The notes below the pieces were generated by a model. The model saw only the letters and a list, made by a program, of their open reading frames with translations, made no database searches and was not told the DNA's origin. From a virus, in the IMG/VR virus record IMGVR_UViG_3300029990_000045, positions 1-28,834 of that record: a stretch of 28,834 bases of DNA. One strand, 5' to 3'. The translations under genes were made by a program, and so were the position numbers. Positions 22,353-24,816 of this stretch are shown here, one piece after another (positions within the stretch are counted from its first letter, which is position 1; each line of letters opens with the position of its first letter).

Positions 22353-22402
22353 AGACCCACACGGAACCTTGGCGATTCGCTGAGATGACTCCGTGTGCCT
22401 GC
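22351..22402 (+). other. 5' stem-loop of the scaffold transcript
   Basis: CACACGGA (22358-22365) pairs with TCCGTGTG (22390-22397), reinforced by GCAG (22351-22354) with CTGC (22399-22402). The stem begins at +2 of the P8 RNA. No T-run directly follows. Confidence 0.65.
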
Positions 22403-22429
22403 TCATTTTCAATTCAGAAAGGAGACTCT

Positions 22430-23341
22430 ATGCGACTCAACATGCTGGCCTTGGCTATCGGCCACGTTTACCAATCCGCCGATGTCTATGCGTCCTTCGG
22501 TGTGAACAGCGCCGTTATGTCGTCCAGCGACCCAATGGAACACGAGCAGAACATGCTTGAGCTGAACGTTGCAACCCGTGACGGCGATGCCTCGATTGAC
22601 CTCGTGGACCCTGCTGACCTCTCTGAGGCAGAGCAGGAAGAGGAAACCGATCAAGGCGAAGAGGGTGGCGAAGGTGAATCTGAAGGTGACCTGGAGGAAG
22701 GCGGAGAGGGCGGAGAATTCAAGCCGCTCGGTGAGCCTGATGCAGAGCTGACCAAAGCCTCTCAGCAACTCGACGAGTACGCCTCGGGTTTTGATGAGAT
22801 GCGCAATCAGGCCATTAAGGCCGGTCTCCCTGAGGCTGTGGCTTCCCGCATCGAAGCGGAATATGAAGCTGACGGCAAACTCTCGGATGATTCCTATGAG
22901 CAGCTCGCGAAGGCTGGCTATTCGGCTGGCTTCGTCAACTCGTTCCTTCAGGGTCAGGAAGCTGTCGCTGAGGCTTACATTACCAAGATCGTTGGTTACG
23001 CAGGCGGCAAAGAACAGTTTGACCGTGTCGTTGCGCACCTCAAAGCAAACTCCCCGAACTCTATGGACGCCCTTTATGACGCCATGGAGCGCCAAGACCT
23101 CAATACGGTTCGCACCGTTATCAATCTGGGCATGGCAAGTCAGACCAAGAAGTTTGGTAAGCAACCTGAGCGAACTTTGAATCGCCGTGGTGCAGTTCCA
23201 GCCGGTCGCAGCGCTCCCGCCAAAGTTCAAGGCTTCGAGTCTCAGAACGAGATGGTTAAGGCAATGAGCGATAAACGCTATGGTCGCGATAAAGCGTACA
23301 CCGCTGAAGTTGAAGCGAAAGTCCATAACGCTAACTGGTGA
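22430..23341 (+). CDS. 9: Capsid assembly scaffold protein (gp9)
   Basis: 303 residues (T7 307). Directs procapsid assembly and leaves before packaging. Very acidic Glu/Gly-rich segment (about residues 60-105), then helices and a basic C-terminal helix (KAMSDKRYGRDKAYTAEVEAKVHN) as in scaffold proteins of this group. The start at 22430 has AAAGGAG 6 nt upstream; the earlier in-frame ATG at 22385 lies in the hairpin. Confidence 0.95.
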   Translation: MRLNMLALAIGHVYQSADVYASFGVNSAVMSSSDPMEHEQNMLELNVATRDGDASIDLVDPADLSEAEQEEETDQGEEGGEGESEGDLEEGGEGGEFKPLGEPDAELTKASQQLDEYASGFDEMRNQAIKAGLPEAVASRIEAEYEADGKLSDDSYEQLAKAGYSAGFVNSFLQGQEAVAEAYITKIVGYAGGKEQFDRVVAHLKANSPNSMDALYDAMERQDLNTVRTVINLGMASQTKKFGKQPERTLNRRGAVPAGRSAPAKVQGFESQNEMVKAMSDKRYGRDKAYTAEVEAKVHNANW

Positions 23342-23451: not shown

Positions 23452-24480
23452 ATGGCAAACGCACAAGGTGGTCAACAAATCGGCAAGAACCAAGGTAAGG
23501 GTCAAACCGATGCCGACAAGCTTGCTAACTTTCTGAAGGTTTTCGGTGGTGAAGTTCTGACTGCTTTCATGCGTCGTGCTGTAACCATGGACAAACATAT
23601 GGTTCGCACCATTCAAAACGGCAAGTCCGCCTCTTTCCCAGTAATGGGCCGAACTGCTGGTTACTACCTCGCAGCCGGTGAGAGCCTGGACGACAAGCGT
23701 GGTGAAATCAAACACTCCGAGAAAGTGATTCAAATCGACGGCCTGCTGGCTTCCGATGTACTGATTTACGATATCGAAGACGCAATGGTCCACTACGACG
23801 TTCGTGCAGAATATTCGGCGCAACTTGGTGAAGCTTTGGCTATCGCTGCTGACGGTGCCGTACTGGCCGAGATGGCTAAGCTGTGCAACTTGCCAGCCGC
23901 TGCTAACGAAAACATTGCCGGTCTCGGTACTGCCACTGTTCTGCCAATCGGCACTAAGGCAGCACTCGAAGCAGACGCTGAGGCAATGGGTAAGGCGATT
24001 CTGAAAGGTCTGACTGTTGCTCGTGGTAAATTGACCCGCAACTATGTCCCGTCTACTGATCGCAAGTTCTACACCACTCCTGAGAACTACAGCGCAATTC
24101 TCGCCGCATTGCTGCCGAACGCTGCAAACTTCTCGGCTCTGACCGATCCTGAAACTGGCAACATCAAGAACGTTATGGGCTTCGAAGTAATCGAAGTTCC
24201 TCACTTGACCGTTGGTGGTGCGGGTGACGACCTCGCTGGTACTAACCGCAAACATGCCTTCCCGGCAACCGCTGCTGGTGACGTCAAAGTCGCACTGGAT
24301 AACGTCGTGGGCCTGTTCAACCACCGCTCTGCCGTGGGTACTGTGAAGCTGCGTGATATGGCTCTGGAGCGTGCGCGCCGTGCCGAATATCAAGCTGACC
24401 AAATCATCGGTCGCTATGCGATGGGTCACGGTGGTCTGCGTCCTGAAGCTGCTGGTGCACTGGTTTTCACAGCGGCCTGA
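23452..24480 (+). CDS. 10A: Major capsid protein (gp10A)
   Basis: 342 residues (T7 gp10A 345). The N-terminus (ANAQGGQQIGKNQGKGQ), KVFGGEVLTAF, GRTAGYYLAAGE, KVIQIDGLL, SDVLIYDIEDAM and the C-terminal YAMGHGGLRPEAAG are the T7 capsid pattern throughout. Forms the HK97-fold shell. AAGGAG lies upstream in a TA-rich leader. The last codons CTG GTT TTC ACA repeat the T7 frameshift context, allowing a longer 10B-type form. Confidence 0.98.
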   Translation: MANAQGGQQIGKNQGKGQTDADKLANFLKVFGGEVLTAFMRRAVTMDKHMVRTIQNGKSASFPVMGRTAGYYLAAGESLDDKRGEIKHSEKVIQIDGLLASDVLIYDIEDAMVHYDVRAEYSAQLGEALAIAADGAVLAEMAKLCNLPAAANENIAGLGTATVLPIGTKAALEADAEAMGKAILKGLTVARGKLTRNYVPSTDRKFYTTPENYSAILAALLPNAANFSALTDPETGNIKNVMGFEVIEVPHLTVGGAGDDLAGTNRKHAFPATAAGDVKVALDNVVGLFNHRSAVGTVKLRDMALERARRAEYQADQIIGRYAMGHGGLRPEAAGALVFTAA

Positions 24481-24737
24481 TCTCAGTAACTGGCGTAACA
24501 CTTAGCCAAGCAACTATGAGTCTCCAAATCGGAAACACTAAGACGCTGACCGCTACTGTTGCGCCTGCTGAGGCCACTAATACTTCCGTTACATGGACGT
24601 CCAGCAATCCAGCTGTGGCAACTGTGAGTTCTGCGGGAGTTGTTACGGCCGTTGCACAAGGAACTTCTACTGTCACCGCTACTACTGTCGATGGTTCTTT
24701 TACCAAGACCTGTGCAGTGACTGTCCCAGCTCCATAA
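24468..24737 (+). CDS. 10B: gp10B-type frameshift extension: Ig-like (Big_2) domain
   Basis: A -1 shift on GGTTTTC (24462-24468) would extend the capsid protein from residue 339 by 89 residues, giving about 428 in total. The extension is open throughout, begins [14 protein letters not shown], and is a classic bacterial Ig-like group 2 domain: [57 protein letters not shown]7 makes 10B by the same kind of shift near the same codons, but its extension is unrelated. A minor fraction of capsomers would therefore carry surface Ig domains, which in other phages may help adhere to carbohydrates. An internal ATG at 24516 has no ribosome site, which favours frameshifting over a separate gene. Confidence 0.8.
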
Positions 24738-24747
24738 CCACTTAAAG

Positions 24748-24784
24748 CCCCTCATCCCGTTTTCTATGGGGCGAGGGGTTTTTT
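24748..24784 (+). terminator. Late terminator after the capsid gene (T-phi role)
   Basis: CCCCTC-AT-CCC (24748-24758) pairs with GGG-GC-GAGGGG (24768-24778), followed by TTTTTT. It is located exactly where T7 has T-phi, between genes 10 and 11. Confidence 0.9.
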
Positions 24785-24816
24785 GCTTTCTATTCAATCA
24801 ATTTCGGGGAGGCCTA

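Follow-up and report, generated by a model that had tools for sequence, protein, structure and literature searches.

A predicted -1 frameshift at the end of gene 10 adds an Ig-like domain to the capsid protein of a T7-like phage

Gene 10 of the phage represented by IMGVR_UViG_3300029990_000045 very probably makes two proteins, the major capsid protein 10A and a minor form, 10B, in which a programmed -1 frameshift at G_GUU_UUC adds an Ig-like domain. The stretch of DNA that we analyzed (hereafter, the window), a fragment of 28.8 kb, comes from a T7-like (Studiervirinae-like) phage, the host of which is probably Pseudomonas. The T7 gene order is kept, with gene 9 (22385-23341), gene 10A, gene 11, and gene 12, and the nearest annotated isolate is Pseudomonas phage vB_PaeM-G11 (hereafter G11), with 83% identity across the gene 10 region. 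The features on which the analysis is based are as follows.

23452-24480, + strand: gene 10A, major capsid protein of the 10A family, 342 aa, zero-frame product (Pfam Gp10A-like PF21703, 351.6 bits; PHROG major head protein).
24462-24468, + strand: slippery heptamer G_GTT_TTC (Val338-Phe339), allowing a tandem slip to GGT TTT (sequence; heptamer shared with T7 and Kvp1-type gene 10; association with extensions).
24468-24737, + strand: extension in the -1 frame, with 89 codons followed by TAA, giving a predicted 10B of about 428 aa (open frame; Ka/Ks in the -1 frame).
24471-24578, + strand: predicted RNA hairpin with long-range stems GGCC/GGCC, UCAGUA/UGCUGA, and GGCGUAACA/UGUUGCGCC, a candidate frameshift stimulator (dinucleotide and synonymous shuffles; pairing in 12 relatives, with some double changes).
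24486-24719, + strand: Big_2 Ig-like domain (70-71 bits; AlphaFold beta-sandwich, pLDDT 90.7; Foldseek matches).
24516-24518, + strand: the sole ATG of the extension, considered not to be a start (no Shine-Dalgarno; located after the first beta-strand; absent from the phi21A/PPpW-4 group).
24746-24785, + strand: rho-independent terminator 3' of gene 10 (CCCCTCATCCCG...CGAGGGGTTTTTT), the counterpart of T7 T-phi (fold -30.4 kcal/mol, z -3.0; sequence).

We propose that the majority of ribosomes would terminate at TGA 24478 and release 10A, and that a minority would slip by -1 at G_GUU_UUC, where the tRNAs for Val338 and Phe339 would re-pair with GGU UUU. The shifted ribosomes would then read on to TAA 24737, yielding 10B, a capsid protein with a C-terminal Big_2 Ig-like domain. 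Slippage is probably made more frequent by an RNA hairpin that begins a few nucleotides past the heptamer and is formed by the initial codons of the Ig domain. By analogy with T7, we infer that the Ig-like domain would be exposed on the head by between a few percent and about ten percent of the subunits and would probably make weak contacts with surface sugars there. Such contacts are thought to be a role of Ig-like domains on phages (reviewed in PMC9022992), and work on the adherence of these domains to mucus is cited in PMC13284502.

The 3' end of 10A reads CTG GTT TTC ACA GCG GCC TGA, with the stop TGA at 24478-24480. The preliminary description had recognized here the GTT TTC context of T7, and the heptamer GGTTTTC is indeed in the zero-frame phase, with GTT as codon 338 and TTC as codon 339, three codons before the TGA. 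Because a stop closes the -1 frame 10 codons ahead of the 10A stop, any shift is confined to a stretch of about 30 nt, and this stretch contains the heptamer. No lysine-type (A_AAG) slip site such as that of T3 was found in phase at the end of the window gene 10, which has G_GTT_TTC instead. The heptamer by itself is weak evidence, since a second in-phase copy of GGTTTTC lies near the start of 10A, at 23538; the sequence also encodes Val-Phe.

We compared the ends of gene 10 from public phage and virus contigs, 87 distinct ends altogether, 59 of which carry an extension (23 Ig, 21 T7-tail, and 15 Klebsiella-type). We counted an in-phase G_GTT_TTY or A_AAG as a slip site and found one in 55 of the 59 genes with an extension versus 3 of the 28 that lack it (Fisher 1.5e-14, a figure that overstates independence because the sequences are related). 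The extension-less relatives mostly retain Val-Phe, but written GTC TTC or GTA TTC, which makes the same tandem slip impossible. Ig extensions lie behind G_GTT_TTY in the window group, L019, and Lepni01 and behind A_AAG in T3, PF7A, and the PPpW-4 group, so two kinds of slip site precede them in closely related capsids. The capsid proteins of L011, L014, and L017 are 85-90% identical to that of the window and are devoid of the Ig extension, which shows that the domain was gained or lost recently.

The -1 frame is open from CAC 24468 to TAA 24735-24737, as had been described. Its product matches Pfam Big_2 (PF02368) with 71.1 bits (E 8e-20; curated cut-off of 22.8 bits) over profile positions 2-79 of 79, so the domain is complete and its earlier assignment to Big_2 is confirmed. 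In the AlphaFold model the first beta-strand comprises residues 10-13, and Foldseek matched the model to the Big_2 of bglH (7r3t, 7quz), lambda gpV, T5 pb6, and the phi29 head protein. Comparisons of the window with L009, L010, L012, and G11 gave Ka/Ks values of 0.14-0.22 in the -1 frame and above 1 in the other two, with substitutions concentrated at third positions of the -1 frame, which indicates purifying selection on the extension, restricted to this frame. Over the 11 codons that separate the 10A stop from the ATG (24483-24515), each of these four relatives shows no nonsynonymous and two or three synonymous changes; the conservation of these codons as protein indicates that translation arrives from upstream of ATG 24516. 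The layout, including the frame relation and the TGA, is identical in the isolate G11 and in the contigs L009, L010, and L012, which rules out a sequencing or assembly error.

It could be argued that the Ig-like domain is made as a small protein of its own, translated from ATG 24516 or through reinitiation beside the 10A stop. An in-frame ATG is available, and a GTG or TTG overlaps the 10A stop in some relatives annotated as having separate ORFs (PSA6, UFJF_PfSW6, and PPpW-4). However, the window has CTG at the position that overlaps the stop, and this codon varies among relatives (CTG, GTG, TTG, and GTA). The ATG has no Shine-Dalgarno sequence (duplex of 0.1 kcal/mol vs. -9.3 for 10A and -11.0 for gp11) and is not kept in the phi21A/PPpW-4 group. 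Moreover, a start at this site (Met18) would delete the first Ig strand, given that the Big_2 domain begins 10 codons ahead of it, and the codons in between are conserved as protein. Independent translation from 24516, the outcome that the preliminary description had named as contrary to its prediction, was thus rejected, as the Shine-Dalgarno is absent and the fold would be truncated. A separate start would also leave the association between slip sites and extensions unexplained, and we consider this origin of the Ig-like domain highly improbable.

Even less credible is that the extension represents an unexpressed out-of-frame remnant, produced by an indel that broke an in-frame fusion or by an assembly error. 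Ig-like domains do shift between phage genes, and the close capsid relatives L011, L014, and L017 have none. Nevertheless, the -1 frame of the extension is under purifying selection, slip sites associate with extensions, and the same frame relation and TGA are found in several independent contigs and in one isolate, an agreement on which assembly error was rejected. On sequence evidence, a programmed -1 frameshift, as originally predicted, is very likely and by far the best explanation for the gene 10 extension, being favored by the Ka/Ks values, the layout shared with relatives, and the distribution of slip sites.

Frameshifting is known to yield a proportion of the C-terminal Ig-like domains of diverse phages, and in the major coat protein of T3 a -1 shift adds an Ig-like extension, whereas the T7 counterpart is not Ig-like (PMC5009743). 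T3 was the first phage for which this device was described, and its database record also annotates the -1 frameshift extension of gene 10. The 10B of T3 and T3-like phages (e.g., phiYeO3-12) resembles that predicted for the window in combining a T7-like gene 10, a -1 frameshift, and a C-terminal Big_2, and the T3 extension (40 bits to Big_2) is 46% identical to that of the window. The difference lies in the slip site, which is of the lysine type in T3 (C_CCA_AAG) and G_GUU_UUC in the window; both T3 and phiYeO3-12 shift at lysines (PMC2579914). In this respect the window is similar to T7 and to Kluyvera phage Kvp1, the 10B of which results from a UUUUC shift close to the gene 10 end, demonstrated by mass spectrometry for the -1 shift at TTTTCA of Kvp1 (PMC2579914). 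The T7 tail, however, is short and charged, with no Pfam match and little RNA structure signal, in line with the earlier remark that it is unrelated to the extension. The window gene 10 is therefore a mosaic of known parts, a T7/Kvp1-type U slip and a T3-type Ig domain. The preliminary description had regarded it as a known recoding device joined to a decoration domain; the combination stands, but the novelty that this implied was overstated, as T3 10B is already such a case (PMC5009743).

Among Pseudomonas phages, G11 has the same slip site and an Ig extension with 84% identity to that of the window, but the extension is unannotated in its record. Indeed, most relatives list 10A alone, so that the Ig domain has been missed and their annotation can be corrected. 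In phiIBB-PF7A a minor capsid protein 10B with an Ig-type extension is annotated by joining 10A and 10B, although it differs from the window in its A_AAG slip site and in having two Big_2 domains, placed in tandem behind GAA AAG (L004, 2512-3042). The capsid end of Phi-S1 (L173, 1557-1620) is as in PF7A (GAA AAG GCG TAA), with a -1 frame that stays open for about 20 codons and a 10B-like ORF that begins at 1600; its closure is possibly due to an indel or a sequencing error.

The 132 nt located 3' of the slip site fold at -42.1 kcal/mol (dinucleotide z -3.8). In synonymous-codon shuffles, which preserve both peptide and codon usage, only 5 of 1500 sequences were as stable as the window hairpin (z about -3.3). 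For the first 87 nt past the 10A stop, the mean z in these shuffles was -3.5 for Ig extensions with a U-type slip, -2.6 for Ig extensions with A_AAG, -2.8 for the Klebsiella-type, and -0.9 for T7-type tails, and it was near zero in 13 scanned intervals across the last 450 nt of 10A. The T7 RNA also folds 3' of the slip, but not beyond shuffles. The distance from the slip end to the start of the long-range stem is +1 to +25 nt among frameshift-type members and +3 in the window.

The hairpin signal might also reflect Big_2 peptide motifs, the TGVT/TVAP codons being partly complementary, or codon bias, with no role in shifting. The sequences GGN GTN AC and GTN GCN CC are inherently near-complementary, and the wobble pairs of the hairpin are not always retained, with pairs lost in L041, PPpW-4, and PD1. 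Nevertheless, each of the 19 frameshift-type segments exceeds its synonymous shuffles in stability (mean z -2.9), in contrast to a mean z of -0.1 for 30 Big_2 segments from unrelated loci (Mann-Whitney p 3e-9, uncorrected for relatedness), and the peptide motif alone is thus not the cause. Many frameshift-type members are related, but when grouped by eye they form about a dozen lineages, and the signal is negative in every one. It also adjoins the slip and is shared by the Klebsiella-type extension, for which there is no match to Big_2. We therefore consider an origin of the signal in peptide motifs or codon bias rather unlikely.

Covariation in the hairpin was not above shuffles in the five nearest sequences. 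With 12 sequences the score exceeded all shuffles, but this result is confounded by relatedness and peptide constraint, which is why the synonymous-shuffle test was used. The sole Rfam match, HepC_CRE, is a chance match (17.6 bits vs. a cut-off of 140). The Ig-codon hairpin may thus be a stimulator that helps the slip. Whether, in T7-like phages with Ig-like or Klebsiella-type extensions, the first codons of the domain generally constitute a selected RNA hairpin driving the frameshift is a proposal for which we see even chances. If true, a module mobile between phages would bring its own stimulator, whichever slip site (G_GUU_UUC or A_AAG) precedes it, which bears on the stimulation of T3-type as opposed to T7-type frameshifting and on how a mobile domain could be ready for expression on arrival. 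In T7, frameshifting is influenced by a CCCC that lies far 3', in the terminator; the window terminator bears CCCC and sits about 280 nt 3'. A scan for sigma-70 promoters and terminators found no promoter, and it also overlooked this obvious terminator.

Other gene 10 extensions differ in content. In L019 (1266-2681), L039, and L174 (Pseudomonas phage Lepni01), a -1 extension of about 471 codons follows G_GTT_TTT or G_GTT_TTC and comprises a Big_2, a putative SGNH/GDSL-hydrolase-like region, so called from its motifs only (EGDSLT, GTNN, and DGTHSN), and another domain. The hydrolase-like part gave no Pfam match and its AlphaFold model in L019 was unusable (pLDDT 37), but it is present in 27 Pseudomonas phage records, often labelled "minor capsid protein." The loci L071-L086 and other Klebsiella-type gene 10s have a different -1 extension of about 91-93 codons (LSVNTFSARTVTP...; phrog_7473) behind GGTTTTC, without a match to any Pfam family. 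Finally, the label "Kappa-carrageenase precursor" given to the Ig-like extension of PSA6 (L088, 2510-2773) seems to be a misannotation.
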